DNA of 64,000 nucleotides from Clostridium ljungdahlii DSM 13528 (lineage in GTDB: Bacteria; Bacillota; Clostridia; Clostridiales; Clostridiaceae). Positions 6,495 through 37,951 of the stretch are shown piece after piece. The notes beneath the pieces were generated by a model that saw only the letters and a program-made list of their open reading frames with translations, had not been told where the DNA came from and made no database searches. The DNA lies in assembly GCF_000143685.1 (NCBI RefSeq), contig NC_014328.1, positions 682,001 through 746,000 on the forward strand, read 5' to 3'. The translations under genes and the position numbers were made by a program. How positions within the stretch are numbered: position 1 is the stretch's first letter; each line of letters opens with the position of its first letter.

Positions 6495-6570
6495 GGGGGT
6501 ATAGCTCAGCTGGGAGAGCATCTGCCTTGCACGCAGAGGGTCAAGAGTTCGAATCTCTTTATCTCCACCA
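6495..6570 (+). tRNA. tRNA-Ala (anticodon TGC)
   Basis: Complete 76-nt cloverleaf with encoded CCA in the 16S-23S spacer. The anticodon loop reads CTTGCAC and the T-loop GTTCGAATC. Confidence 0.97.
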
Positions 6571-6574
6571 TTTA

Positions 6575-6651
<77 letters not shown>

Positions 6652-16966: not shown

Positions 16967-17455
16967 GTGGTGCTGAATTTGGAAAAAGTTAATGCTATTT
17001 TAAAAAACCGTAAGTTTTGTACCTATTTATCTAAAATTAATAAGCTTGAAGAAAGTAGAAAGTATTGTAAACACAATATTCAACATTTACTGGATGTGGC
17101 TAGAATTACTTATATAAAAGTGTTGGAAGAAAATATTCATGTAAAAAAAGAAATTATATATGCAGCTGCTCTGCTGCATGATATAGGAAGATGGCAGCAA
17201 TATGAAGAGGGTATACCTCATGAATTAGCTAGTATTAAGTTAGGAAAAGATATTTTGGATGAGTGCGGCTTTGACAATGAAGAAGAAAAAGAAATATTTG
17301 ATTTGATAAGTAATCACAGAAAAAAAGATTCTGATAGTTTACTTCAAAGTATATTTTATGATAGTGACAAAGCATGTAGAAATTGTTTTATGTGTAAAGC
17401 TGTTTCAGAGTGTAATTGGCCAGATGAAAAGAAAAACTATAGTATTGAATATTAA
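16967..17455 (+). CDS. HD-domain phosphohydrolase in the folate operon
   Basis: 162-aa HD-superfamily protein. The metal-binding pattern is visible: an early His (CKHNIQHLLDVAR), the HD pair in AALLHDIGRW, a later ISNHRKKDS and an Asp in FYDSDKACR. The C-terminus has a small Cys cluster (CRNCFMCKAVSEC). Start GTG 16967, three bases after folE. Context between folE and folB-folK suggests a folate-related phosphohydrolase, for example the step from dihydroneopterin triphosphate, for which no Nudix enzyme is present here. That role is inference only. Confidence 0.85.
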   Translation: MVLNLEKVNAILKNRKFCTYLSKINKLEESRKYCKHNIQHLLDVARITYIKVLEENIHVKKEIIYAAALLHDIGRWQQYEEGIPHELASIKLGKDILDECGFDNEEEKEIFDLISNHRKKDSDSLLQSIFYDSDKACRNCFMCKAVSECNWPDEKKNYSIEY

Positions 17456-17481
17456 TTGGTTTTAGTTAGGGGATGTTTTGT

Positions 17482-18309
17482 ATGGATATCATATATGTAG
17501 AGGATTTAGAAGTATATGCCTATCATGGCGTAAATCAAGCTGAAAAAGATATGGGGCAGAGGTTTCTTATATCACTACAAATATTTTTAAATTTAAGTGA
17601 AGCAGGAAAAAGTGATGACCTGAGTAAAACTATTAATTACGCTAAATTATGCTGTGAAGTAGAGGAAGAATTTAAAAGGGAAAAATATGATCTTATTGAA
17701 AAGTCTGCAGAGTCACTAGCTAATTTTATATTGAAAAAATATATAGCAGTAGAAAAAGTGACAGTTAAAATAAAAAAGCCCTGGGCGCCTATAGGAAAGC
17801 CATTAAAGTGGGTAGCGGTAGAAATAAATAGGCGCTGGCATACAGCTTATATTTCAATTGGTTCTAATTTAGGTGATAAAGAAAAAAATATAAAAGATGC
17901 CGTAGATATAATAGATTCTTCACATTATAATAATGTAACAAAAGTATCTAAATTATATGAAACTAAACCTGTGGGATATTTAGATCAGGATAATTTTTTA
18001 AATGGTGCTCTAGAGGTTAAAACCTTAATGGAGCCCGAAGATTTAATGGATTTTTTGTTAGAGGTAGAGAAAAAATTAAAAAGGGAGAGAATAATAAAAT
18101 GGGGACCTAGAACTATAGACTTGGATGTAATATTATATGATAATTTAGTTACATCAGAAGAAAAGATTATACTTCCCCATCCAAGAATGCATGAGAGATT
18201 ATTTGTTTTAAAGCCATTGTCAGATATTGCACCTTATGTTATTCACCCTGTTTTAAATGATAGAATCATAAATTTGACTCATGAATTAGAAAAAACACAA
18301 GAATTATAA
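17482..18309 (+). CDS. folBK: Bifunctional dihydroneopterin aldolase / HPPK
   Basis: Fusion of two consecutive folate enzymes. The N-terminal ~118 residues are FolB (EDLEVYAYHGVNQAEKDMGQRF, then the KIKKPWAPI strand). The remainder is FolK, with SIGSNLGDKEKNI, the KWGPRTIDLDVILYD signature and LPHPRMHERLFVLKPL. I prefer ATG 17482, eight bases after AGGGG, over ATG 17473, which abuts the ribosome binding site. It is last in the operon and followed by a strong terminator. Fused FolB-FolK is known in several Firmicutes. Confidence 0.95.
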   Translation: MDIIYVEDLEVYAYHGVNQAEKDMGQRFLISLQIFLNLSEAGKSDDLSKTINYAKLCCEVEEEFKREKYDLIEKSAESLANFILKKYIAVEKVTVKIKKPWAPIGKPLKWVAVEINRRWHTAYISIGSNLGDKEKNIKDAVDIIDSSHYNNVTKVSKLYETKPVGYLDQDNFLNGALEVKTLMEPEDLMDFLLEVEKKLKRERIIKWGPRTIDLDVILYDNLVTSEEKIILPHPRMHERLFVLKPLSDIAPYVIHPVLNDRIINLTHELEKTQEL

Positions 18310-18320
18310 AGTTTTAAGTT

Positions 18321-18366
18321 AAAAATAATTTTGCATATAGTTTATATGCAAAATTATTTTTTTATA
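18321..18366 (+). terminator. Folate operon terminator
   Basis: 19-bp arms (18321-18339 and 18343-18361) around a 3-nt loop, followed by T-rich sequence. Confidence 0.85.
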
Positions 18367-18455
18367 CTATATTTTGTTGTGCAGTTTTAAGTCACAGTAA
18401 TAAATATACGATATATAACCATAATGTAAATTTAGCAAAGAATGGGAGTGGTTTC

Positions 18456-19571
18456 ATGACAGAAAAGATATTAAAACCTCCAGTAGAGGTTTTGTATAAA
18501 GAAGAAATTGCAGCTTTAAAGAAAAATGATGATGGAATAAAACCAGAAAATTGGATACTGTCACCAAAAGCTGTGAGAAAATTTATACTCGGAAGTTTAG
18601 AACCTTTAACATATAGAAATAAAAAAATATACATAAATAAAAAGTTTTTTGGAAATGATTCTCTGGTTGAAAGATGTATTATAACCCTTGCAGGAAATAG
18701 AGGACTTATGCTTGTTGGAGAACCAGGTACTGCAAAAACAATGTTATCTGAGTTATTATCTGCGGCGATATGTGGCTGCAGCACCAACACTGTTCAAGGT
18801 ACAGCTGGAACTACTGAAGATATGATTAAGTATTCATGGAATTATGCAATGCTTTTAGCAAAAGGACCAACATCTGAAGCTTTAGTTAAAGCACCACTTT
18901 TTGTTGGAATGGAGAAGGGAATTATCACGAGATTTGAAGAGATAACAAGGTGTCCATCAGAAATTCAAGATAGTTTAATAAGTATATTAAGTGATAAGGT
19001 ACTTAATATACCAGAACTTGGTGAAAGTGAAGGATTACTATTTGCAAAACCTGGATTTAATGTAATAGGTACTGCAAATACACGTGATAAAGGTGTTAAT
19101 GAAATGAGTAGTGCTTTAAAAAGAAGATTTAATTTTGAAACCATATTTCCTATAAAAGATGTTTCACTGGAAGCAAAAATAATAGTAAATGAAGTTGAAA
19201 AACTTAAAAACCAAAACAACATAAAAATGGAAGTGGATGAGGATGTTGTAGAACTTTTGGCCTCAACTTTCCATGAGCTGAGAGAAGGAATATCTTCAAA
19301 TGGTATAAGGATAGATAAGCCTTCTTCAGTTATGAGTACAGCAGAAGCCGTATCTGTTTATTACCAGACAATGATAACAGCTTATTACTATGGAGATTCG
19401 AAGATTAACCTCAATTCTATGGCCCAAAATATAATGGGTGCTGCTTTAAAGGAAAGTAGAGATGATCTTGAAAAGATTAAAAGTTATTTTAATGTTGTAG
19501 TTAAATCAAAAGCTGCAGAAGGTGGGGAGTTATGGAAAAGTTATTACGAAGCAAGGAAATGGATAAAATAA
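18456..19571 (+). CDS. MoxR-type AAA+ ATPase (YehL-like)
   Basis: 371-aa AAA+ ATPase of the MoxR branch, a group that acts as chaperones or remodelling factors with VWA partners. Walker A is GEPGTAKT at residues 88-95. The Walker B position reads ITRFEEITR, with EE in place of the usual DE. Sensor 1/arginine-finger region is GTANTRDKGVNEMSSALKRRF. ATG 18456 follows GGGAGTGG. It opens an eight-gene same-strand cluster that also holds a VWA gene, and overlaps the next gene by 40 bases. From memory it resembles E. coli YehL. The function is not established. Confidence 0.88.
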   Translation: MTEKILKPPVEVLYKEEIAALKKNDDGIKPENWILSPKAVRKFILGSLEPLTYRNKKIYINKKFFGNDSLVERCIITLAGNRGLMLVGEPGTAKTMLSELLSAAICGCSTNTVQGTAGTTEDMIKYSWNYAMLLAKGPTSEALVKAPLFVGMEKGIITRFEEITRCPSEIQDSLISILSDKVLNIPELGESEGLLFAKPGFNVIGTANTRDKGVNEMSSALKRRFNFETIFPIKDVSLEAKIIVNEVEKLKNQNNIKMEVDEDVVELLASTFHELREGISSNGIRIDKPSSVMSTAEAVSVYYQTMITAYYYGDSKINLNSMAQNIMGAALKESRDDLEKIKSYFNVVVKSKAAEGGELWKSYYEARKWIK

Positions 19572-21943
19572 ATAAACTATTTAATGCCGCCTTTGATTTA
19601 AGGTCAAACCTTGTATTTTTTCCTGTAAGACATCATAGTCCAGCATGCTCGTATCATTTAAGAAATACAATTGAAGAATATTTACCGGAAATTATACTAA
19701 TTGAAGGACCTATAGATGGAAATAACATAAAGGATTCACTGTCACATGAAGATAGTAATCCTCCTTTTGCTATTTACTATTCTTATTCAGATTCAAAAGG
19801 ACTTATAGATGATACAAGGGGAAAATATAGATGTTATTATCCCTTTTTAGATTATTCACCAGAACTTATTGGAATTAGAGAAGGCAAAAAGAAAAACGTT
19901 GAAACTAGGTTTATTGATTTATCTTATGCTGACATACTTATAAACAGTGAGAAAGGTAAGGGACTTCTGAAAAAAGAAGATAAGTTAAGTTACAATGATG
20001 ATTATTTTCTTGAAGAAAACAAATTTATAGAAGAATTGTGCAAAAGAGAAGGCTGCAGAAGTTTTAATGAGTTTTGGGAAAAGCTATTTGAAATTCAGGG
20101 ACTTTATATAAGTAAAGAAGATTTTGTGAAAAATATGCTTTCTTATTGTTATCTTTCAAGAATGTGCAGCACAAAAGAAGATCTTATAAGTGAAGGCTGT
20201 GTTGCCAGGGAAACTTTTATGGCATCTAAAATTCAAGAAGCATGCAGCGTATATAACAAAGTTTTAGTAATCACCGGTGGATTTCATACATATGGAATAA
20301 TAGATTTATTGAATAAAAAAGTTGAATTTAGAATTAAGAAAATTGATGAAAAGGATAAAGGAGTATACGTTATGCCATACTCTATGGAAGCACTTGATCA
20401 GTTAAATGGATATTCAAGTGGAATGCCCTTTCCCAATTTTTATGAAGGTGTGTGGAAAAGATTAAATGAAAGTTATGAAACTGCATATAAGAATTCTGTA
20501 CTTTCAAATATTATTCAAAATGGTAAAAAGGTTAGAAAAAATGATGGATGTCTTTCTACTTTTGATGAAATATGTGCGTTTGATATGGCCCAGGGACTTT
20601 CAAATCTTAGGGGGAAGCGGCAGCCTGGAGTGTATGAACTCATAGACAGTATAACTTCATCTTTTATAAAAGGAGACTTAAATATATCTACAGAAGATCC
20701 ACTTAAAATTTTATATAAAGATTTAACTGGAAATAAAATTGGCAAGCTTTGCAGGGAGGCAGATGTGCCGCCTCTTGTACATGATTTTAAAGACACTTGT
20801 GCTAAATACAAGCTCAAGATAAATACTACTATAAAACAGGAAATTTCACTTGATATATTTTCATCAAAAAGACACAGAGAAATAAGTTGTTTAATGCATA
20901 GGATGGCATTTTTAAATACTAATTTTTCTAGGCTAATAAAAGGACCAAATATTTTTTTAAAGAGAGATGTAAATTTAATAAGGGAAACCTGGTACTATAA
21001 ATGGAACACACAAGTTGATGCAGCTTTAATCGAAAATTCAGTTTATGGAGGAACCTTAAAAGAAGCATCTACGTCTCTTATAAAAAAGAATATGAATGAA
21101 TGTGGTAGAAGTGCAGAAAATATTTCAAGATTATTAGTTTTATCATTTAACATGGGGCTTGATGAAATTTTTAATTCTACAATAAATGAACTAAAAGATA
21201 TTATTGCGGAAGATAGCAGCATCTATTCATTAATAAATTGCCTTTATTATTTAAATTACATTTACACAATGAGAGAATTATATTTCATGAATTCTATGAA
21301 TGAAGTAAAAAATATAATTTTTTACGTGTACAGCAAAATATGCATATTGATTCCAGATATGGCTTCAATTAATGAAGAAGAAGCTTTAAAAGGAGTTAAT
21401 TCTCTGAAAGAAGTATTTAACATTGTAGTGAAAAGAGAATTAGATTTAGATGACACACTTTTAAAAGAAGCTTTATTTTCGCTTCTAAGATTTGATTCTA
21501 TAAATGCAGGAATTGAAGGAGCAGCATCTGGAATACTATATGGATTAAATGAACTTAAATCAGAAGAAGCAGCAAAGTCTGTGGAAGGATATATATTTGG
21601 TACTAAGGAAAAAGCACTAAAAGCACCGTCTTTTTTAAATGGATTGTTTTCAACTGCAAGAGATTTAGTTTTTGTGGAAGGTTCTATTTTAAAGTCAATT
21701 GATAAGTTTATAAATGAAGTTGAAGATGAAGATTTTATAAGAATTATACCACAGTTAAGGCTTGCATTTAGCTATTTTATACCTAGAGAAGTAGATGAAA
21801 TAGGAGAAAAAGTAGCAAAAAATTATAAGGTGAGTAAAGTTCATTTTGATGGACTTAAAGTTATTTCACCTGAAATTTTAAAGCTTGGATCGGAAATTGA
21901 TAAATATGCAGCTGAGAAAATGGAGCAAAGTGGCATAATATGA
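19532..21943 (+). CDS. DUF5682-like protein (YehM-like)
   Basis: 803-aa soluble protein with no signal peptide or membrane segment. The N-terminal third carries spaced polar motifs: PVRHHSPAC, IEGPID, YPFLDYSPE, FIDLSYADI and ITGGFHTYGI. These are the kind seen in the EreA/ChaN/TIKI-like hydrolase group, so a metal-dependent hydrolase fold is possible (inference). The C-terminal half is helical and repeat-like. Start ATG 19532 follows GGTGGGGAG inside the AAA gene; ATG 19559 is an alternative that would shrink the overlap to 13 bases. Its position between the MoxR and VWA genes matches the E. coli yehL-M-P order as I recall it. Confidence 0.75.
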   Translation: MEKLLRSKEMDKINKLFNAAFDLRSNLVFFPVRHHSPACSYHLRNTIEEYLPEIILIEGPIDGNNIKDSLSHEDSNPPFAIYYSYSDSKGLIDDTRGKYRCYYPFLDYSPELIGIREGKKKNVETRFIDLSYADILINSEKGKGLLKKEDKLSYNDDYFLEENKFIEELCKREGCRSFNEFWEKLFEIQGLYISKEDFVKNMLSYCYLSRMCSTKEDLISEGCVARETFMASKIQEACSVYNKVLVITGGFHTYGIIDLLNKKVEFRIKKIDEKDKGVYVMPYSMEALDQLNGYSSGMPFPNFYEGVWKRLNESYETAYKNSVLSNIIQNGKKVRKNDGCLSTFDEICAFDMAQGLSNLRGKRQPGVYELIDSITSSFIKGDLNISTEDPLKILYKDLTGNKIGKLCREADVPPLVHDFKDTCAKYKLKINTTIKQEISLDIFSSKRHREISCLMHRMAFLNTNFSRLIKGPNIFLKRDVNLIRETWYYKWNTQVDAALIENSVYGGTLKEASTSLIKKNMNECGRSAENISRLLVLSFNMGLDEIFNSTINELKDIIAEDSSIYSLINCLYYLNYIYTMRELYFMNSMNEVKNIIFYVYSKICILIPDMASINEEEALKGVNSLKEVFNIVVKRELDLDDTLLKEALFSLLRFDSINAGIEGAASGILYGLNELKSEEAAKSVEGYIFGTKEKALKAPSFLNGLFSTARDLVFVEGSILKSIDKFINEVEDEDFIRIIPQLRLAFSYFIPREVDEIGEKVAKNYKVSKVHFDGLKVISPEILKLGSEIDKYAAEKMEQSGII

Positions 21944-21997
21944 ATGCAGTTATTCTATTTTGGACTTAAGTATGCATATAAAGAAAGGAAGATTAAT

Positions 21998-22486
21998 ATG
22001 GAGATTAAAATTAGACAGGTATCTATAGATGATTTAAATTCGGTAGCAGAAGTGGAAAGCATTTGCTTTCCAAAAGCAGAAGCAGCTACAAAAGAGTCTT
22101 TTAAGCAGCGTATAGAAACATTTCCAGAAAGCTTTTTTGTGGCAGAAGTAAATGATAGAATAGTTGGATTTATTAATGGATGCATTATAAATGAGACTGT
22201 TATATGTGATGAACTTTTTGAAGATTCTACACTTCATGTTCCAAATGGACACTATCAAACCATTTTTGGATTGGATGTTATACCAGAGTATCGTAATCAG
22301 GGAATTGCAGCAAAGTTAATGAAGCATATGATAGAAACAGCAAGATCATCAGGCCGAAAGGGAGTTATTTTAACTTGTAAGGAAAGGCTTATTCATTATT
22401 ACATGAAGTTTGGCTACAAAAATAAAGGAGTATCTAAATCAGTTCATGGTGGTGCTAAGTGGTATGATATGATTTTAGAATTTTAA
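21998..22486 (+). CDS. GNAT-family N-acetyltransferase
   Basis: 163-aa GNAT protein. The acetyl-CoA-binding motif A is FGLDVIPEYRNQGIAAKLM and motif B includes YYMKFGYKNKG. The N-terminal VAEVESICFP resembles the arylalkylamine N-acetyltransferase-like branch. ATG 21998 has AAAGGAAG upstream; the longer frame beginning at 21944 lacks a ribosome binding site. It sits within the MoxR/VWA cluster in the same direction, 54 bases after the DUF5682-like gene, but is not a usual member and may be a passenger. Confidence 0.88.
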   Translation: MEIKIRQVSIDDLNSVAEVESICFPKAEAATKESFKQRIETFPESFFVAEVNDRIVGFINGCIINETVICDELFEDSTLHVPNGHYQTIFGLDVIPEYRNQGIAAKLMKHMIETARSSGRKGVILTCKERLIHYYMKFGYKNKGVSKSVHGGAKWYDMILEF

Positions 22487-22532
22487 GTATATAAGTGAAG
22501 TTTATTAAGGAAAATTATAATGGAGGAATATA

Positions 22533-22922
22533 ATGAAAAATTTTAATATAGAATTACCTGAGAGTTTAGAAAAATTTAAAGACAAAATAGAAAAACTATA
22601 AAACCATATGTAAAAATAAAATTAAAAGAACAAGAAAACAAGCCTTGGGAAATGGGTTAGGGCAAGCTTTGAGGAAAGTAATTTAAATGAATGGAAAGCT
22701 AACAAAGAATATTCTTTGATACAGATAGATGAGGCTTGTGATAGCTGCAGTACCTATTTAAAGGATAAAAATGAGGAGCTTTTCTTAACTGTACAAAGAT
22801 ATGAGGATGGAACAGAAAATAAAATTATCTATGCATCTTCAGTAAAATTAATTAAAAAATTATTTAGAGATAAATTGAAAACAGCAGTTGGATATCCTAA
22901 ATATGAAATATATAGATTTTAG
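22533..22922 (+). pseudogene. Broken gene with two frame changes
   Basis: Good ribosome binding site TGGAGGAA and ATG 22533, but the first frame stops at 22599. The sense continues in a second frame (TIKPYVKIKLKEQENKPW, 22595-22660) and then a third (about 22650-22922, ending KTAVGYPKYEIYRF). The N-terminal portion reads like the start of DUF1963/YwqG proteins; the rest is unrecognised. Two frameshifts within about 65 bases argue for decay rather than error. Between it and the VWA gene (22923-23051) is a further short open stretch with no start, probably debris. Confidence 0.6.
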
Positions 22923-23051
22923 AAAGTTTTAAGGGCTTATCTTCTACAAATAAGGATTACTGCTTATTGAATAAGATATAAAGTTTAAGGTAACTTTGGG
23001 ACAATATGCAGTGGAGCATTTAAAAAAATGGCAGAAGAGGAGGGATAACCT

Positions 23052-24188
23052 ATGAAGGAAAGTTTAGTCAGCTTAAATAGATGGAGATTGATACTTGGAA
23101 AATATGCAGATGGTAAAATTCCATTTGAAGATAGCAATTCAGGTATCAACTATATGGAAATGGATGACTTACTGGATTTTTTATATTCAAGAGAATACAG
23201 CGAAAAAGATGGAGTTAAGAGAGGTAAAAGCAGTGGGAGCACGTCACCATCAAATTTGACTGTACCTAAATGGATAACTAAAATAAGAGAACTTTTTCCA
23301 AAGGAGACTGTTGAAGTACTTGAAAAGCATGCAATTGAAAAATATAATCTCACAGAACTTTTAACGGATAAAGAAGTTTTGGAAAAATTAGAACCTAATA
23401 AAGAGCTTTTAAAAAATATACTACAGATGAAACACCTTATGAAAGGTGATGTACTTGATACTGCCAAGTCCATTGTAAAAAAGGTAGCAGAGGATATAAC
23501 AAAGAAACTTGAAAATGATGTTAAAAGATCAATTACGGGTAGGGTAAATAAAAATAAATCCACAACTTTAAAGTCTTCTAAAAATATAGATTTTAAAAGG
23601 ACTATAAAGAAAAATTTAAAAAACTATGATTGTGATAAAAAGAGACTCGTAGTGGACAAGATATATTTTAATGAGAATGTTAGAAAATTCAACCCATGGA
23701 ATATAATAATTGCAGTAGATGAGAGTGGGTCTATGCTAGATTCTGTGATTCATAGTGCAATTATGGCTGGTATATTTTCAAAACTTCCTATGCTTAAAAC
23801 AAATCTCATTATATTTGATACGGAAGTAGTTGATTTAAGTGGATATATTGATGATCCTGTTACAACACTTATGAGTGTACAGCTTGGTGGTGGAACTAAT
23901 ATAACTAAAGCTATGACTTATTGTGAAAAGTTAATTGAAAATCCTCATAGGACAATGGTTGTTCTAGTTACGGATTTATATGAGGGATATGGTTATGGAA
24001 ATATGTATGCAAAGGCAAAGTCCATTGTTGAAAGTGGAGCAAAGCTCATTATTTTAACAGCTCTTGATGTAGAGGCATCGCCTTCATATGATAAAAATGC
24101 TGCTTTAAAAATGGCTTCACTTGGAGCAGAAGTTGCAGCTATGACACCGGGGGGGTTATCAGATTGGATAGCAAAGATAATTTCTTAA
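23052..24188 (+). CDS. VWA-domain protein (YehP-like, CoxE-type)
   Basis: 378-aa protein with a C-terminal von Willebrand A domain. The MIDAS metal site is complete: DESGS at residues 223-227, the Thr of LGGGTNIT and the Asp of LVTDLYEG. The N-terminal 200 residues are helical and charged, with no membrane segment, so it is cytosolic. The gene starts at ATG 23052 after GAGGAGGG, and its 3' end overlaps the SWIM gene by 25 bases. MoxR ATPases typically work with VWA partners, and both are in this cluster. The length matches my recollection of E. coli YehP. Confidence 0.88.
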   Translation: MKESLVSLNRWRLILGKYADGKIPFEDSNSGINYMEMDDLLDFLYSREYSEKDGVKRGKSSGSTSPSNLTVPKWITKIRELFPKETVEVLEKHAIEKYNLTELLTDKEVLEKLEPNKELLKNILQMKHLMKGDVLDTAKSIVKKVAEDITKKLENDVKRSITGRVNKNKSTTLKSSKNIDFKRTIKKNLKNYDCDKKRLVVDKIYFNENVRKFNPWNIIIAVDESGSMLDSVIHSAIMAGIFSKLPMLKTNLIIFDTEVVDLSGYIDDPVTTLMSVQLGGGTNITKAMTYCEKLIENPHRTMVVLVTDLYEGYGYGNMYAKAKSIVESGAKLIILTALDVEASPSYDKNAALKMASLGAEVAAMTPGGLSDWIAKIIS

Positions 24189-25840
24189 AAGAACTTGGAA
24201 AATTTATTTACAGCATGGATGCAGATTATCTTGCTGGAATCAGCAATAAAGGTATTACAAAGAGAGCAGATAAGGATTTGTCCAAAGTTTCAAATATAGA
24301 ATATGAAGTAAAGAATAATAGCATTGAATTTAAATTTGATGATATAACCTGCAGTATAAATGAAAATATAAAAGGTTATAAATGCAGTTGTCCGTCAAGG
24401 AGCATATGTAAGCATGTCATAATGTGTTATTTGTATTTGATGAAAAATAAGGAAAAGTTATTTGATATACAGGGTTGTGGAAGTCAATCTGAAGAAGAGG
24501 AAAAGTTTTTAGCTTTAAAAGAAATTTCCATAGATACAATAAAGAAAAAGACAGGAGATAAAAATCTGAATGACATAATTAAAAGAATAGAATTTGGAGT
24601 GAATTTTGAAATAAAAGAAGGTTCTATTATAGAAGTCAATTTTATAGACGAAAATACTTTGGTGAAGTTCTTGGGTAACATTGAAAATTCAACATGCACT
24701 TGCAAATCCAAGGAATTATGTGTACATAAAGCTGAAGCGTTGATTTTATACAAATTGAAAAAAGGCTATTTGAATTTAAAAGAGCTTAAAGTTTTTGCAA
24801 AAACATCAGAAGGTTTTGATGAACAAAAATTAAAAGAGGCTTCATTTAAGATAAAATTTGCAGTTGAAGATATGCTTATAGCTGGTCTTTCTAGAATGCC
24901 AGTTACTATCATGGATAGTTTGAATAATTTAGCTGTTATATGTCATAATTATGAACTCCCTAATTTTGAAAAAAGTGTAAGAGATATTAGAGAGGAAATT
25001 TCTCTCTATTTTAATAAAAATGCTTCCTTTGTTAAAGAAAATCTAGTAAATAAAATAACATCTCTTTATACAAGGGCAATTTCACTTGAAAATGTAAAAG
25101 ACTTAGATAAATTGAGTTTGCTTGTTGGTGAATTTAAAAGTTCATATTACGAGATTCCACCTGTAGAATTTCATGGTTTTGCAGCTGAAAAGTGGAAAAG
25201 CAATTCTGGTTATGAAGGAATTACATATTATTTTTTAGAAAGTAAAAATGGACAAATTTATACATATACAAATGCATTACCTACATATTATGATGATGTT
25301 AATTATAGGAAATCTTTTAATGAACCTGCTCCATGGAACTTAAATTGTAGTATTTGTGAATTAAGTAATATAAGTTTCAAATTAATTCACGGCAAAATTA
25401 ATTCACAAAATAGGATATCTTCAAGCAGTGAATCAAATGGGACAATAATAGGTAAAAGTAATATTTTTAAATTAAATACTGAAAAGTATGATTATGATAA
25501 CTGGAATGAAATTTTAGACAGGATATTTTTAGACAAGAGGGAAAAAGATCAAGAGTATAATTTAATATTTTTACAAATAGATAAATTTGGAGAAGTGGAT
25601 TTTAATGATGTAACTCAAGAATTTTCTGTACCAATTTATGATAAGTTTAATAACTGCAGTAAAATTATTATTAAATTCTCCTTGGATACAAAATATATGA
25701 TAAGAAGAATTGAAAGAGTTATAAAATATAACAGATCACATTATATTTTTGGAAGAATTTATATAGATGGTGAGGAGCTCGTATTTTATCCTATAACTTA
25801 TTATGATGATACTGGACAAGTAGAAAATTTAACACTATAA
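24164..25840 (+). CDS. SWIM zinc-finger protein with two SWIM motifs (YehQ-like)
   Basis: 558-aa protein with two CxC...CxH SWIM motifs: YKCSCPSRSICKH (Cys74, Cys76, Cys82, His84) and STCTCKSKELCVH (Cys178, Cys180, Cys186, His188). SWIM domains bind zinc and mediate DNA or protein contacts. The rest is unrecognised. Translation probably starts at TTG 24164, eight bases after a G7 run, within the end of the VWA gene, so the two are likely coupled. The next gene follows by 22 bases. Confidence 0.82.
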   Translation: MDSKDNFLKELGKFIYSMDADYLAGISNKGITKRADKDLSKVSNIEYEVKNNSIEFKFDDITCSINENIKGYKCSCPSRSICKHVIMCYLYLMKNKEKLFDIQGCGSQSEEEEKFLALKEISIDTIKKKTGDKNLNDIIKRIEFGVNFEIKEGSIIEVNFIDENTLVKFLGNIENSTCTCKSKELCVHKAEALILYKLKKGYLNLKELKVFAKTSEGFDEQKLKEASFKIKFAVEDMLIAGLSRMPVTIMDSLNNLAVICHNYELPNFEKSVRDIREEISLYFNKNASFVKENLVNKITSLYTRAISLENVKDLDKLSLLVGEFKSSYYEIPPVEFHGFAAEKWKSNSGYEGITYYFLESKNGQIYTYTNALPTYYDDVNYRKSFNEPAPWNLNCSICELSNISFKLIHGKINSQNRISSSSESNGTIIGKSNIFKLNTEKYDYDNWNEILDRIFLDKREKDQEYNLIFLQIDKFGEVDFNDVTQEFSVPIYDKFNNCSKIIIKFSLDTKYMIRRIERVIKYNRSHYIFGRIYIDGEELVFYPITYYDDTGQVENLTL

Positions 25841-25862
25841 ATGGTAAATTGGTGGTGAGTAT

Positions 25863-26183
25863 ATGAACGAATGTAAACAGATACTTAATGTAATAGATGA
25901 AGTCCAAAAAAGCATTCAAGAATTATTTTTTAGTGGATTTAATACACCTAGTGATTTTGTAATAGATGAATTTTTGAGGCTTGGACTTGTTTTAGAAAGT
26001 TGTGGAATGAGTTATGGTTCTCAAAAATTAAATAGTATACATGATAAGTTGAAATCAAAAAGACATTCATTTGATTTCAACTATAGTGAATGTGTTAAAG
26101 AATATTGTGAACTAAATGAGTACTGTATAATTTGTAAAAAGAGATTGAATATATTAAATTTGAAGACAAAAATAAGCAGCTAG
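25863..26183 (+). CDS. Small conserved-context protein of unknown function
   Basis: 106 aa, ATG 25863 preceded by GGTGGTGAG. Seven Cys residues, including CIICKK near the C-terminus, and amphipathic helices are visible, with no signal peptide or membrane segment. I do not recognise the family. It is tightly packed between the SWIM and DUF4132 genes, and its stop overlaps the ribosome binding site of the latter, so it is probably expressed with them. Confidence 0.7.
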   Translation: MNECKQILNVIDEVQKSIQELFFSGFNTPSDFVIDEFLRLGLVLESCGMSYGSQKLNSIHDKLKSKRHSFDFNYSECVKEYCELNEYCIICKKRLNILNLKTKISS

Positions 26184-26194
26184 GAGTGGATAGT

Positions 26195-29100
26195 GTGAAT
26201 ATAAAGGAACATTTACTTAATAAAATTGAGGATGTACTTGAGGAACTAAATGTATCACAGGATGCATTGGGGTCTCTAGAAGATTATTTAGAAGATGAAG
26301 TTCAAGAAGATGAATTTTTAAATATGCTTCCTGAGGTTGATTTTAACTCGATTTCAAAGGATATATTGAGTAAGGCTGCAAAAGCATATACTTCTATAAG
26401 AAGATACAAGTCAAATGAATATATAAGAAAATACATAAATATCTTGTTTAAAATGGGAAAAGCAAGCGTGACCTATGTAATACTTAAATCTAGTTACTGG
26501 ATTTCTGAATATACGGTTAATGAACTTATAAAAGCTGGAGTTGAAAAATATATAGTTCTTATAGTTTATGTAAACCGTTTGGCATATGACTATAGCAGAT
26601 TAGACAATAAAAATTTTAAAACAATATATGATATGTGCAGGGAAAGTCCGGAGGATGTAATAAAGGCTTGTGAGTACTTGGATGTAAATCAAAAGATGGT
26701 AGTCTGTTCAATATATTGTAAATATAAAGGTATAGAAAAAAATGACAAGTATTATGAATTTTTAAAGGACATAGAAGATGATTTTACAAATTCTATAGAC
26801 AACCTTTATGATAATAAAATGCCTGATGATTTGGTAAAAAAAATTCAAATGTTCATTGAAAAAAATGACTACGCACTTCTTGAAAATATTATTGATGAAG
26901 TTAAAGGATATAAATATAGTGATTACCTATTTAAATTTTTAGTTGGATTTTCAGCATTAAATGCAGATAAATCTGCAACTTTAAAGAAGATGTTTCAGTT
27001 TTTTGTAAGAGTAAATTTTAGAGATGCTTTAAATTCAGCATATAGTATTTTACCTGTTACAAGTTGTTATTCTGACACTGTAAATAATATGGATATGTTA
27101 TTTGAAATACCTTCAAAATACCATGTTGCCTGGTATGCAGAAAAGTTTGCAGGTAATGAAACGGCATCAGAAATACTCAAGAAAAAATTAAAAGAGAACA
27201 AGAAGTCCTTTGAAGAAGCAATAAGCTTATCAGAAGGCGCCAGTAAAAATTATTTAATGTCATTTATGCTTGATGGTGATGAAAAATCAAATTATATAAA
27301 AACTCTTGAGGAAAATTGTATAAATGTGTTTTCAAAAGTTCTTAGGGAAGATAAAGTAAATGAAGGGGATATAAGTGTAGTAGAATCATTTTTACGAGAT
27401 GATGTTTCCTTTGAAAATGTGAAAAACACACTATATTCAATAGAACCACAAAATACAAGTTATTGGAGAATGAATAATGAATTAATAGAAGTACTGAATA
27501 TTTTATGCAAAAATTTAGGCGGAGGTATTAATTTATATGAAAGAGTAGTTTCAGTAATGGCAGCAGTTGGTTATAAGAATTATATTGTAAAACTTTCATC
27601 AGATTATAAGAGAAACACTGGAACAGAGTACAGCAGTGAAAAGTTTCATAAAATATTTGATATACTTAGAAAGTACAGTGTACCTATCCTGGCAAAGATG
27701 AAACTTATAGATAATATTATAAATGATTATGATTATATGGGTAGGAAAGCAGCAGCACTTCATACTGTTTTAAAAGATATTGTGGTAAAAGATAAAGATG
27801 AAGTTGTTAAAAATATAGATAATATTTCAGCAGATGGAAGATGTGTATTTTTAGAGTATATATTTAAAGTGAAAAAGGAAGAAAATATAAAAGTAGTTTT
27901 AGATAAGTTTGGAGATGGCTCAAAAAAGGTTAAGGAAAAGATAGTAGAGTTGTTTACAAATAGTTCAAGCAATCTTAAATATATGGAAGGTGTGCTTGAT
28001 AAGCTTAAGGCCAAGAAACAGGGAGAAAGAGAAGTTGCTATAAGAATTTTATCAAAATGGTTAAATGAGGAAGGCATTGAAGAAGAAAGAAGTAAGCTCA
28101 TTAAAGAATGTTTAAATTATACTCTGGAGGCTGAAAAGAGTCAGAAAATAAGAGCCTTACTTATGGAGGTTTTGGGAATTGAACAAAAAGGCATGGACAA
28201 AGAAAAATTAAAAGGTGAGGAATTTATAAAAGATTTACTTAAAGGCAATAAAAAGAATTCACTTTCATGGCTTGAATTTGATTCATTACCTAAAGTTAAA
28301 TTAGAAGAGAGTAATAATTACTGTGAAGAGGACTATTTAAAGGCCGTTTTACTTTGCTATTCAGCATCAAATACTATAGGCAAGAGTGTCGATGGAGACA
28401 GGCTTGTTCAAAAGTTAAATAGAGATAGCTTGAAATTATTTGCAAATGAAGTTTTTGATAGGTGGTTTGAAAAAGGTGCAGAAGCTAAAAAGAGATGGGT
28501 GCCTGGATTTTCATCAATTTATGGCGGAGAAGAAATTGTAATGAAGCTGCAAAAGTGTATCAATGATTGGGCAAAGAATTCAAGAGGTGCCATAGCAAGT
28601 CAGGCAGTTAAGGCTCTAGCTTTAAATGGGGGTTCTTCTGCACTTTTAATAGTTGATGGTATCTCAAGAAAATTCAAGTTCAAGCAGGTTAAAAAAGCAG
28701 CAGCAGAAGCACTTGATTTTGCTGCAGAGCAAATGGGAGTAGATAGAGAAGAACTTTCTGATAAAGTTGTTCCGAACTTAGGATTTAATGCAAGTGGAGA
28801 GAGAATATTTGACTATGGAAGTAGAAAGTTTATTGTAAGACTTGCTGCGGATTTAAGTGTAGAAGTATATGATCAAAATGAAAAGAAACTTAAAAACTTG
28901 CCTTCACCAGGCAAAAAAGATGATGAATCAAAAGCAAAGGAAGCACGTAGTGAATTTAGAGCATTTAAAAAGCAATTGAAAAATACAATTTCAGTTCAAA
29001 CTACTAGAATGGATTTGGCACTCTCAAATGAAAGAAAGTGGACAAAAGAAGCATGGATAAAACTATTTGTTGAAAACCCTATTATGCATAAATTTTCAAT

Positions 29101-29764
29101 AGGACTTATATGGGGAATCTATGAAAATTCAAAATTAGTAGATACATTTAGATATATGGAAGATGGAACTTTTAATACTAAAGATGAAGATGAATTTGAA
29201 GTACCTGAAAAATCAAGCATAGGACTTGTGCATCCTCTTGAACTTTCTAGAGAGGATTTAAATCTTTGGAAGGAACAGCTTGAAGACTATGAAATTGTAC
29301 AGCCTATTAAACAATTGGATAGAGAAGTATTTACTATGACTGAAGAAGAAAAGAAAATGAAATATGTAGATAGATTTGGAGGGAAAATCGTAAATGGTCT
29401 ATCGCTTGTAGGTAAGATAATGAACTATGGCTGGTATAGAGGTTCTATTCAGGATGCAGGAGGATACTATGAATTTTACAAGGAAGATAACAGCTTGGGC
29501 ATAGGAGTTGAATTGAAGTTTGAAGGATTGTCTGTTGGCTATGAAAATGAAGATACGACAATTTATATATTGAGATTTTATAATGCAGGTACAGTAAAAA
29601 GAGGAAGTTACATATATGATGAGATAAAGGAACAGCATTTACTTTCCTTAAGCCAAGTTCCAGAAAAATATTTTAGTGAAATACTATATCAAGTTAGCAG
29701 TGCACTATCATCAAGCAGTACAGTAAATGAAAATTGGAGAAATGGTTCTGGAATTAAGTTTTAA
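26195..29764 (+). CDS. DUF4132 protein (YehI/MolR-like)
   Basis: About 1189-aa cytosolic protein. The first ~850 residues are helical and look like HEAT/ARM-type repeats. The C-terminal part carries DUF4132 hallmarks: an Arg-rich linker, ENPIMHKFSIGLIWGIYE, a TFRYMEDGTFN strand, IGLVHPLELS and YEIVQPIKQLDREV. Start GTG 26195 lies eight bases after AGGAG; GTG 26186 overlaps that site. E. coli YehI (MolR) is of similar size and belongs to the same domain family. Its naming as a molybdate regulator is old and not mechanistically supported. It is the last gene of the cluster and is followed by a terminator. Confidence 0.85.
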   Translation: MNIKEHLLNKIEDVLEELNVSQDALGSLEDYLEDEVQEDEFLNMLPEVDFNSISKDILSKAAKAYTSIRRYKSNEYIRKYINILFKMGKASVTYVILKSSYWISEYTVNELIKAGVEKYIVLIVYVNRLAYDYSRLDNKNFKTIYDMCRESPEDVIKACEYLDVNQKMVVCSIYCKYKGIEKNDKYYEFLKDIEDDFTNSIDNLYDNKMPDDLVKKIQMFIEKNDYALLENIIDEVKGYKYSDYLFKFLVGFSALNADKSATLKKMFQFFVRVNFRDALNSAYSILPVTSCYSDTVNNMDMLFEIPSKYHVAWYAEKFAGNETASEILKKKLKENKKSFEEAISLSEGASKNYLMSFMLDGDEKSNYIKTLEENCINVFSKVLREDKVNEGDISVVESFLRDDVSFENVKNTLYSIEPQNTSYWRMNNELIEVLNILCKNLGGGINLYERVVSVMAAVGYKNYIVKLSSDYKRNTGTEYSSEKFHKIFDILRKYSVPILAKMKLIDNIINDYDYMGRKAAALHTVLKDIVVKDKDEVVKNIDNISADGRCVFLEYIFKVKKEENIKVVLDKFGDGSKKVKEKIVELFTNSSSNLKYMEGVLDKLKAKKQGEREVAIRILSKWLNEEGIEEERSKLIKECLNYTLEAEKSQKIRALLMEVLGIEQKGMDKEKLKGEEFIKDLLKGNKKNSLSWLEFDSLPKVKLEESNNYCEEDYLKAVLLCYSASNTIGKSVDGDRLVQKLNRDSLKLFANEVFDRWFEKGAEAKKRWVPGFSSIYGGEEIVMKLQKCINDWAKNSRGAIASQAVKALALNGGSSALLIVDGISRKFKFKQVKKAAAEALDFAAEQMGVDREELSDKVVPNLGFNASGERIFDYGSRKFIVRLAADLSVEVYDQNEKKLKNLPSPGKKDDESKAKEARSEFRAFKKQLKNTISVQTTRMDLALSNERKWTKEAWIKLFVENPIMHKFSIGLIWGIYENSKLVDTFRYMEDGTFNTKDEDEFEVPEKSSIGLVHPLELSREDLNLWKEQLEDYEIVQPIKQLDREVFTMTEEEKKMKYVDRFGGKIVNGLSLVGKIMNYGWYRGSIQDAGGYYEFYKEDNSLGIGVELKFEGLSVGYENEDTTIYILRFYNAGTVKRGSYIYDEIKEQHLLSLSQVPEKYFSEILYQVSSALSSSSTVNENWRNGSGIKF

Positions 29765-29790
29765 AAATGTTGTTAAACAATGGACATAGA

Positions 29791-29843
29791 AAGGGAAAAT
29801 GGGTATAGATTTGTGTAAAAACTAAATCTATACCCATTCCCTT
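29791..29843. terminator. Bidirectional terminator between convergent operons
   Basis: ATGGGTATAGATTT pairs perfectly with AAATCTATACCCAT around an 11-nt loop, extended by AAGGGAA / TTCCCTT with a one-base bulge. It lies between the DUF4132 gene and the minus-strand S41 gene. Confidence 0.8.
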
Positions 29844-31092
29844 AAAATTTTAAGATGTAATTTAAAACAGGATCAGTTTTATTCATGTAATCTTTTATAG
29901 ACAATTCAATTATCTTATCAGGTGCAAAAGTGCTGCTGTTGTTATTGGAACTTTTATTAAACTGTGTGGAATAACTTATTTCCATCTTTGAATTTGGAAG
30001 TTCAAATTCCTTTACAGCACCATAGTGATTTGGTTTACCACTAGTAGTTTCCCCTACAAAAGTTGCGTTAGTATCCTTTTTTAATAGGCTAGTATCAACT
30101 ATTGCGGATGAAAAGGTATTCCTTCCAACTATCACAAATAGGTGATTTTTATTATTTAACTTTTTATTTTTAAGCCAGTCTATAATTGGTTTTATATATT
30201 TATCACTTCCACCGGAATTATCTCTCATATCAATTACAAATTTATCTACAGTATGTGTATTCATAAAGCTTAACATTTGAGCTATAAAATCTTCTATGGA
30301 TTTACCTGAGTCCTCGTCACTTTGGCACTTATTATATTTAAAATAAACTGTCTTCTCATCACTTAAATATTTATACCAGTAATTTAAATTTTTCTTTTGC
30401 ATATAAAGTGGATATGAACTATTGTATGTTTCATTTACGATAAACTTTTCACTAATTTTGTGTTTATCCATAGAACTTACATTTAAATTAAAAATTTTTC
30501 CATTACTGTCTTGAAAAGTAAAGACTGCTTTATTTGTATCAGATACAACTTTTATGCCATGGACAATTTCAGGATTTGACAAATACTTGGGCACACTCTT
30601 TTTAACCATTCCTTCGTTGTCATTTACTATTAAAGGTAAAATCGCTTCTTGGATATTTTTTATGTCTTTACCATTTATCTTTATGAGTTTGGCATAAAGA
30701 GCTTTTTTGTACTCACTTGTAGTATTTACAACATATACACCTTCTTTAAAATAGTAAAATTCCATTGGATATGCATTTAAGGTTTCCTTATATGCAGATG
30801 TATGTGAATCTCCTATGGATGCAGTTATTTTATAGATACCAGCAGCTATTTCATCGTCATTTAAATTATCTACTGAATTTTTTAGTGTATTTATTTCATC
30901 ATTAAACTTTTCTTCATTTATTTTAAAAAATAAATTTACATGTTTTTTAGGAAGAGCTTTTTGCATATAACTTAAGTCTTTTTTCCACTTTGTATTTCTA
31001 TCTCCACCTAGATACTCAGATTCACATCCTGCAGCAGCTATAGCAAAAGAAAATAGTATAAAACCAAAAACTAATTTTACAAATTTATTCAT
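29842..31092 (-). CDS. S41-family peptidase-like lipoprotein
   Basis: 416-aa exported lipoprotein; the signal peptide ends in AAAGC. The C-terminal half has the tail-specific protease (S41) core: FVIDMRDNSGGS, VGRNTFSSAIV with the candidate nucleophilic Ser, and GETTSGKPNHYG. The N-terminal region covers a helical segment with SIGDSHTS, as in the CtpA-like C-terminal-processing families that lack PDZ. It lies 12 bases after the second permease on the same strand, so it is the last gene of the ABC exporter operon. A role in processing or degrading the transporter's peptide substrate outside the cell is inference. Confidence 0.85.
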   Translation of the reverse strand: MNKFVKLVFGFILFSFAIAAAGCESEYLGGDRNTKWKKDLSYMQKALPKKHVNLFFKINEEKFNDEINTLKNSVDNLNDDEIAAGIYKITASIGDSHTSAYKETLNAYPMEFYYFKEGVYVVNTTSEYKKALYAKLIKINGKDIKNIQEAILPLIVNDNEGMVKKSVPKYLSNPEIVHGIKVVSDTNKAVFTFQDSNGKIFNLNVSSMDKHKISEKFIVNETYNSSYPLYMQKKNLNYWYKYLSDEKTVYFKYNKCQSDEDSGKSIEDFIAQMLSFMNTHTVDKFVIDMRDNSGGSDKYIKPIIDWLKNKKLNNKNHLFVIVGRNTFSSAIVDTSLLKKDTNATFVGETTSGKPNHYGAVKEFELPNSKMEISYSTQFNKSSNNNSSTFAPDKIIELSIKDYMNKTDPVLNYILKF

Positions 31093-31104
31093 CGTTAACT
31101 CCTT

Positions 31105-31854
31105 TTAATTTATATCCTTTTTGTTAAATTCGTATATAGAAATACTTATAAAAAATATAAAACACAAAACACTTGAAATTATAATATAATTCAAATCAAC
31201 ACGATAATCCAAATCAACATGTGCATTTGAATAAAAATAATCTACTGAAAGCCATGGTGATAGTAGCGGAATATATTTTGCACAATATGAAAAAGACTGA
31301 GTTCTAAGTAGACATGACAAAATAAACCCTAATATACCATAAGTCATTGGCATTATAATATTCCTGCTCAAGTTTGCAATTAATACAGGAATTGGAACTA
31401 ATAAAAATTGAAATAACATAGATAATATATTTGCTTTTAAATCCTTTGTTATAACATTTATCTCGGGTAAATTTCCATTTAAAAAGTAATAGCTTAATGG
31501 TATTGATATGATTTCGATAACATATGTTAAAAAAATCAATATATATATTACAACCAATTTTGACATGAAAATTTTTGATTTGCTTGCTGGATAAGCGTAT
31601 AATACATTAGCTGTCTTATCTGTAAATTCCCTTGAAAATACATATGCCGATATTATTGAAAATAAAACTATAAACAACATTATAAAATTTGTCTGTTCTA
31701 TATTGTAAGCATATTTTTCAAAAGACATGTTAACTTCAGTTATATGTCTTGCAGCAAACATAAGTATTGTCATAATTGTTCCGCCAATCAAAACAAGAGG
31801 TGCAATGCAAGTCTTTTTCAATTTAAAAAATTCTGAGCATATCATATTTAACAT
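31105..31854 (-). CDS. ABC-2 type permease (second subunit)
   Basis: 249 aa with about six hydrophobic segments. It begins MICSEFFKLKKT, the cytosolic helix typical of lantibiotic-immunity and bacitracin-type permeases, and carries a SAYVFSREFTDKTANVLYAYP loop that also occurs in its neighbour. The two permeases share this loop and most of their length, so they are paralogues from a duplication. It is the third gene of ATPase-permease-permease-S41. Confidence 0.88.
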   Translation of the reverse strand: MLNMICSEFFKLKKTCIAPLVLIGGTIMTILMFAARHITEVNMSFEKYAYNIEQTNFIMLFIVLFSIISAYVFSREFTDKTANVLYAYPASKSKIFMSKLVVIYILIFLTYVIEIISIPLSYYFLNGNLPEINVITKDLKANILSMLFQFLLVPIPVLIANLSRNIIMPMTYGILGFILSCLLRTQSFSYCAKYIPLLSPWLSVDYFYSNAHVDLDYRVDLNYIIISSVLCFIFFISISIYEFNKKDIN

Positions 31855-37794: not shown

Positions 37795-37870
37795 GGGGGT
37801 ATAGCTCAGCTGGGAGAGCATCTGCCTTGCACGCAGAGGGTCAAGAGTTCGAATCTCTTTATCTCCACCA
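37795..37870 (+). tRNA. tRNA-Ala (anticodon TGC), operon 2
   Basis: Identical to the tRNA-Ala of operon 1, in the same spacer position. Confidence 0.97.
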
Positions 37871-37874
37871 TTTA

Positions 37875-37951
<77 letters not shown>

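Follow-up and report, generated by a model that had tools for sequence, protein, structure and literature searches.

A yeh-type MoxR-VWA operon of Clostridium ljungdahlii with a predicted TraB/TIKI-type domain in its DUF5682 protein

NorQ-NorD, CbbQ-CbbO, CoxD-CoxE and RavA-ViaA are pairs of a MoxR-family ATPase and a partner protein with a VWA domain. The subject of this contribution is a gene cluster with such a pair in Clostridium ljungdahlii DSM 13528 (assembly GCF_000143685.1, contig NC_014328.1, positions 682,001 to 746,000 of the forward strand; these 64,000 nucleotides are the window), which also encodes a DUF5682 protein, a double-SWIM zinc-finger protein and a large DUF4132 protein. 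With the known pairs it has in common a MoxR ATPase, a VWA partner and a presumable dedicated client (PMC13036017, PMC3893208; papers are cited by accession and for the available parts of their text), whereas it differs in that its ATPase is of the YehL subfamily, that the operon encodes extra proteins including a TraB-like putative hydrolase, and that no respiratory enzyme was recognised nearby. The MoxR family has seven subfamilies, of which YehL is one, and E. coli K-12 has two MoxR proteins, YehL among them (PMC3893208). No function is assigned to the yeh operon in the literature searched, which contains passing mentions only; yehM carries the label "biofilm" in expression data, without a mechanism (PMC12114223).

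The operon of the window is orthologous to E. coli yehI-L-M-P-Q. Profiles of the window proteins match YehL (6.5e-116), YehM (9e-78), YehP (1.1e-123), YehI (1.3e-82) and YehQ (2.5e-22), so the likeness to the yeh region that the initial annotation had pointed out was correct. All five domains it had named (MoxR, DUF5682, VWA, SWIM and DUF4132, all on the plus strand) were confirmed by Pfam. The window MoxR protein is closer to YehL (46% identity, 322 bits) than to RavA (26 bits), and the orthologues of all five proteins lie in one same-strand run here as in yehI-yehK-yehL-yehM-yehP-yehQ. The two operons differ in that the DUF4132 gene is first in E. coli and last in the window, that a GNAT gene and a gene remnant are inserted in the window, and that E. 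coli has YehK as well as yehF and yehH upstream. YehF near the E. coli operon (L085, 2475-3299) is a WGR-domain protein. YehK was considered as the counterpart of a 106-residue protein of the window and rejected, as no profile match was obtained up to E 10.

Co-occurrence was analysed by scanning the contigs of 84,980 species genomes with a DUF5682 alignment, which gave 259 confirmed relatives, and by fetching the best 80 of these 259. The bait was clostridial, hence the 80 loci are labelled mostly Lachnospiraceae and Clostridium and the counts describe that set. Components were identified by calling of open reading frames (ORFs) and by profiles seeded with the window proteins at a 35-bit cut. 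Among loci with enough sequence, MoxR was present in 78 of 78, VWA in 68 of 69, SWIM in 62 of 66 and DUF4132 in 58 of 62; all five components were found in 58 of 62, and the scored components lie on one strand in 80 of 80 loci. DUF4132 comes first in four loci (L010, L016, L017 and L053) and last in all others that show it. The pairwise distances of the five proteins correlate with r 0.84-0.96 over 61 complete loci including the window, a value to which shared species history contributes in part. The profile searches and the neighbourhood analysis, by which the initial annotation was to be judged, thus assigned the domains and found the genes together across genomes, and the coupled YehL/M/P/Q/I-type system it had proposed is strongly supported by the profile matches and the near-complete co-occurrence. 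The system is real and widespread and apparently uncharacterised.

The DUF5682 protein is the enzyme-like component. Its N-terminal domain (about residues 20-300) is predicted to be kin of the TraB/PrgY/TIKI superfamily and is followed by a helical C-terminal part. The AlphaFold2 (AF2) model has a mean predicted local distance difference test score (pLDDT) of 87.4, and the best VIA match of the N-terminal domain is a solved TraB family protein. In hhalign comparisons DUF5682 reached a probability of 83-97 to a mixed TraB set and of 62-94 to its PrgY-type half, with controls at 1.1 or below; the GumN-type half and a YbaP set did not match. PrgY-type and GumN-type are our own labels for the two halves, ten each, of 20 TraB proteins, a few of which were shortened by the choice of start codon. 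The claim made here is superfamily kinship and not membership of PF01963 (TraB_PrgY_gumN), as hmmscan of the protein returned PF18934 alone at E <= 0.05. Foldseek with the whole model returned helical-repeat proteins and nothing at E <= 0.001, and searching the PDB with the profile of alignment A1 yielded two rows, both weak and unrelated (best E 0.078). Alignments A1 and A2 contain 66 and 50, respectively, of 120 listed proteins, each together with the window protein. Residues H34, E58, E111, R226, E227 and H252 are identical in 95 of 95 aligned sequences, of which H34, H252 and E58 together with E111 or E227 form a candidate 2His/2Glu catalytic set, judged from conservation. The domain resembles the TIKI/TraB/PrgY superfamily in motifs and conserved His/Glu residues and possibly in its predicted fold, but differs in lacking a TraB Pfam match, in being joined to the large helical part and in being tied to a MoxR-VWA operon. 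The putative hydrolase of the initial annotation gains support from this prediction. Neither DUF5682 nor PF18934 is mentioned in the papers listed by our search, which subscription papers mostly fall outside, so that earlier TraB assignments are possible. Placing DUF5682 with its invariant His/Glu residues in the TraB/TIKI superfamily turns "function unknown" into a directly testable hydrolase question for YehM.

The partner proteins likewise retain their functional residues, as scored from alignment columns for the Walker and metal ion-dependent adhesion site (MIDAS) motifs. Residues G88, G91, K94, E161, E162, N208, R223 and R224 of MoxR are identical in 89 of 89 aligned sequences; the Walker A lysine, the sensor asparagine and the arginines are among the positions conserved throughout. 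The Walker B motif reads EE and not the usual DE (residues 161-162, window 18936-18941) in all 89, a possible hallmark of the YehL subfamily. The MIDAS residues D223-S225-S227-T282-D308 of the VWA protein are kept in 74 of 74 sequences of the locus set and in 10 of 10 others, except for one T-to-N exchange. In one locus (L013, 13256-15798) an insertion whose ORF looks TnpB-like by eye interrupts the VWA gene. The SWIM protein carries two CxC..CxH motifs at residues 74 and 178 (CSCPSRSICKH and CTCKSKELCVH); the first is kept in all 74 aligned sequences (one H unread), and the second is lost in some of 6 non-clostridial ones.

The largest protein of the operon bears its DUF4132 domain at residues 900-1083 of 1192. 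Its AF2 model (mean pLDDT 86.2, predicted template modelling score (pTM) 0.57) matched HEAT/ARM solenoids in Foldseek and VIA, and such solenoid matches took up the result lists, so that none bore on the DUF4132 domain itself. Two tandem DUF4132 proteins stand at the operon end in L039, L044, L045, L059 and L062. The 106-residue protein was missed by the initial annotation, whose five genes stood, as were the inserted GNAT gene and the gene remnant. It belongs to the system: its family has a gene of its own in the window and 30 loci, and in 37 other loci, mostly labelled Lachnospiraceae, it makes up the C-terminal domain of the SWIM protein. Some SWIM proteins contain a weak internal copy of this domain, e.g. 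L010 at residues 226-286 (iE 1.5e-5).

Related operons occur in Pseudomonadota, Actinomycetota, Deinococcota, Bacteroidota and Fusobacteriota, giving six phyla overall; an actinobacterial occurrence had been named in the initial annotation, and two records were confirmed by profile. Operons with DUF4132 were found in Escherichia, Iodobacter, Agrobacterium and, by profile, Nonomuraea. The operons of Deinococcus (L130), Rhizobium (L156), Methylosinus (L155) and Hymenobacter (L154) also have MoxR, DUF5682, VWA and SWIM genes in one run, but DUF5691 takes the place of DUF4132 and the order is SWIM-DUF5691-MoxR-DUF5682-VWA; the VWA of Methylosinus is in three pieces, and in Hymenobacter SWIM is fused to DUF5691. 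Direct comparison of DUF5691 with DUF4132 gave a probability of 5.8 versus 0.2 for 15 shuffles. We infer that the solenoid slot can be filled by either domain and that SWIM and solenoid proteins are the targeting parts. For annotation, the 106-residue gene is then a domain separated from the SWIM protein, and DUF4132 and DUF5691 are alternatives at one operon position; this interchange, the sixth component and the TraB/TIKI prediction for DUF5682 are new here. Fusobacterium has MoxR-DUF5682-VWA with a SWIM-motif ORF upstream, and Nocardia has MoxR-DUF5682-VWA, where SWIM was not seen. Among 299 genomes drawn evenly from the phylum, including that of the window, DUF5682 was above the cut-off in 5, DUF4132 in 7 and both in 3; the system is therefore rare and patchy in the phylum. 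In one genome of this draw (G231) genes for SWIM, a HEAT-repeat protein, MoxR, DUF5682 and VWA follow one another.

We tentatively propose, at a probability of about 0.45, that in this operon an ATPase ring and a VWA adaptor activate a TraB/TIKI-type DUF5682 protein to which the SWIM, 106-residue and HEAT-DUF4132 proteins bring the target. The proposal builds on the genes themselves, on how closely they co-occur and diverge together, on the residues that do not vary in the ATPase, the MIDAS site and the His/Glu set of DUF5682, on the SWIM fusions and on a natural DUF5682-VWA fusion (protein P0103, one among the 120 matches listed of 2215). MoxR would form a ring and dock on the VWA protein, as NorQ on NorD. 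The MIDAS site would bind DUF5682, and ATP hydrolysis may remodel it, either opening the active site or loading a metal. Activated DUF5682 could then cut a peptide or ester bond by means of H34, H252 and E58 (with E111 or E227), while SWIM and solenoid proteins would select the substrate; the trigger could be a genotoxic, metal or other stress. The client of the MoxR-VWA pair is most simply DUF5682, given its enzyme-like character and its fusion to VWA in P0103. Natural fusions (DUF5682-VWA, SWIM-106-residue, SWIM-DUF5691) support contact between the products as far as fused genes can indicate it, and a large regulated complex, as envisaged in the initial annotation, appears plausible from the gene content. 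The co-occurrence data have their limits: at least one partner is missing from 5 of the 80 loci although the contig is long enough (L026, L029, L048, L068 and L076), and common descent has a share in the correlated distances. If true, the operon would represent a new type of energy-controlled hydrolase, found at least in part in almost every complete E. coli genome and dispersed among six phyla. It is rather improbable that yeh-type operons amount to an unrecognised class of ATP-gated cytosolic proteases, with a fold unrelated to Clp, Lon and FtsH, in which a MoxR ring and a MIDAS adaptor switch on a TIKI-family peptidase and supply it with substrates that SWIM and HEAT proteins select.

Activation may also be confined to metal loading. 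The MoxR-VWA pair would then only insert a metal into DUF5682 or another metalloenzyme, like NorQD, which inserts iron into nitric oxide reductase (PMC13036017), or like CoxD, which is required in metal-cluster assembly of CO dehydrogenase (PMC3893208), and SWIM and solenoid proteins would be assembly scaffolds. The match of the window VWA protein to VWA_CoxE, the metal dependence of Tiki activity (PMC6254334) and the appearance of yehM, without a mechanism, in a set of genes that mutated in copper-selected E. coli (PMC12409786) are consistent with this. However, copper is tied to the operon by a single entry in that set, the 30 printed flank clusters, inspected by eye (no profile test), show no recurring metalloenzyme or molybdenum gene, and the SWIM and HEAT targeting-type proteins exceed the known two-protein insertion pairs; we regard this alternative as unlikely. 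A role in biological conflict, which the initial annotation had considered besides stress, would make the cluster an anti-phage or anti-plasmid operon like the MoxR-vWA ternary systems, in which infection would set DUF5682 free as a toxic effector. Those systems likewise combine MoxR and VWA with further proteins (VMAP, iSTAND and others), yet YehL, DUF4132 and SWIM are not mentioned in the available part of the paper describing them (PMC7159879). The window proteins have no Pfam match to a VMAP, iSTAND or beta-propeller third component, the VWA protein has only VWA-type matches, and MoxR matches bpMoxR of the ternary systems below the cut-off (22 versus 27 bits). This sub-cutoff bpMoxR match would suit conflict, as would the gain and decay of the cassette in the genus, an Iodobacter operon beside a type I restriction system, and toxin-antitoxin-like or Abi-like genes, named by eye, that are inserted in a few operons (e.g. 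L020, L029, L036). Against it, PADLOC (2023 library) matched none of the core proteins from the window or from E. coli, its one weak match (GajA, E 0.009) being the inserted GNAT; 23 pattern matches in IMG/VR yielded 0 confirmed; and of 5426 E. coli genomes, 5342 match the 10.7-kb yehI-Q stretch wholly or partly and 3976 cover at least 80% of it. The flank clusters that recur most often resemble, by eye, response regulators (25 loci) and ABC transporters (20 loci; the next 8 or fewer), and DUF5682 is conserved and not a fast-changing effector. A conflict role is left unsupported and distinctly improbable.

SWIM fingers are predicted nucleic-acid binders, and the WGR domain is linked to DNA-damage proteins. 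Both would fit a DNA-damage response module that acts on damaged DNA or on proteins attached to it and in which SWIM and DUF4132/WGR partners sense nucleic acids, and WGR protein YehF is encoded upstream of yehH-yehI in E. coli; no WGR domain was found in the window proteins, however (Pfam, E <= 0.05). The Deinococcus DUF4132 protein DRA0166 is strongly up on DdrO depletion and MolR is described within the LexA regulon, but these genes are not up in irradiated irrE mutants (PMC8533742), and the argument presupposes a link of DRA0166 to DUF5682. A scan of 79 stretches upstream of MoxR, allowing at most 1 mismatch and with expectations from mononucleotide shuffles, gave LexA-box-like sites GAACN4GTTC in 14 (8.4 expected) and CTGTN8ACAG in 16 (8.2 expected); an exact GAACN4GTTC occurs in 1 of 79 (L051) and none in the upstream stretch of the window. 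SOS control via LexA boxes was rejected, the excess over simple shuffles being weak, and we consider a DNA-damage module quite unlikely. Molybdate metabolism, suggested by database names of DUF4132 relatives such as "Molybdate metabolism regulator" and "MolR family" after the old molR annotation, is hardly credible, as the flank clusters show no recurring molybdenum gene by eye and molybdate genes of D. radiodurans were unchanged when its DUF4132 gene changed (PMC8533742).

Table 1. Features of the cluster in the window.
Feature	Positions	Strand	Remarks
Inverted repeat, perfect 19-bp, 3-base loop	18321..18361	.	Between folBK and cluster; role presumed
MoxR-family AAA+ ATPase, YehL type, 371 aa	18456..19571	+	PF07728 (AAA_5) E 4.6e-35
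DUF5682 protein, YehM family, 803 aa	19532..21943	+	PF18934 E 1.6e-93
GNAT acetyltransferase, inserted, non-core	21999..22486	+	PF00583 E 4.7e-16; ORF open from 21944
Gene remnant, inserted, non-core	22533..22651	+	tblastn E 3e-9, two pieces, vs intact gene in L011
VWA (CoxE-like) protein, YehP type, 378 aa	23052..24188	+	PF05762 (VWA_CoxE) E 7.4e-42
Double-SWIM zinc-finger protein, YehQ type, 558 aa	24164..25840	+	PF04434 (SWIM) E 1.3e-5
106-aa protein, sixth component	25863..26183	+	Matches C-terminal domain of longer SWIM proteins elsewhere
HEAT-like solenoid (predicted) + C-terminal DUF4132, YehI type, 1192 aa	26186..29764	+	PF13569 E 1.5e-50
Inverted repeat, perfect 15-bp	29798..29838	.	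Between DUF4132 and convergent S41 peptidase gene; role presumed

The cluster (Table 1) fills the gap between folBK (17473-18309, plus strand) and an S41 peptidase gene on the opposite strand (29842-31092). Each of the two inverted repeats at its borders is likely a two-way terminator; a terminator scan that requires G-C pairs did not list the one next to folBK. Terminator-like sites were slightly above expectation (5 vs 2.6), promoter-like sites were at chance (67 vs 65.6), and an Rfam search of 17000-31500 gave zero matches. The overlaps of 40 bases (MoxR/DUF5682) and 25 bases (VWA/SWIM) reported in the initial annotation stood, whereas the near-zero junction at 21943/21944 does not connect DUF5682 to VWA: the ORF at 21944, taken for the VWA gene, encodes the GNAT acetyltransferase (PF00583). 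The VWA gene begins 1.1 kb past DUF5682 in the window and directly after it in many relatives. In 75 of 81 pairs, counted over the 80 loci plus the window, MoxR and DUF5682 overlap by exactly 40 bases, so that the first DUF5682 codons are constrained by the MoxR C-terminus. The true DUF5682 start may be a later ATG at 19559, within this overlap. Two tRNA-Ala/tRNA-Ile pairs in high-GC stretches at 6495-6651 and 37795-37951, both on the plus strand and about 31 kb apart, look like two rRNA operons bracketing the cluster, recombination between which could delete it.

DUF5682 occurs in 2 of 13 genomes of the genus sample, including that of the window. The insertion site between folBK and S41 was inspected in six relatives. 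Four of them (G011, G002, G004 and G003) have no system gene there, and G006 contains MoxR, a DUF5682 gene shortened internally, GNAT and the final 175 residues of DUF4132, but not VWA, SWIM or the 106-residue gene. In G006 the surviving DUF4132 tail (L122, 12044-12682) is in frame with the end of another stretch that by eye looks acetyltransferase-like. In the sixth (G008, L144), GNAT is the only cluster gene at the site; it has therefore either persisted after the system was lost or made independent use of the site. Homology of the window GNAT to this sister species begins at 21987, with 87% identity over 21987-22486. From these comparisons the simplest history would be one acquisition in the lineage of the window, followed by decay. 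The gene remnant, which we take to be DUF1963-like, is broken by a stop and a frame change; its intact relative lies near a GNAT inside the same operon type in L011, and the two may be a travelling accessory pair. Inserted genes in operons are varied, some being toxin-antitoxin-like, Abi-like, TnpB-like or GNAT by eye. The system looks dispensable, and a branch of E. coli ST131 carries a transposon in the yehI-Q region (PMC9334617). In INPHARED, 1 of 50,697 records contains MoxR-DUF5682-VWA, the unverified faecal scaffold MT835988 (L127), which is labelled bacteriophage and is probably a bacterial contaminant. Matches were found in 31 of 72,556 plasmid records, several of them chromosome-sized; one E. 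coli plasmid (L128) bears the yehI-Q region with its chromosomal neighbours between IS26 copies beside resistance genes.

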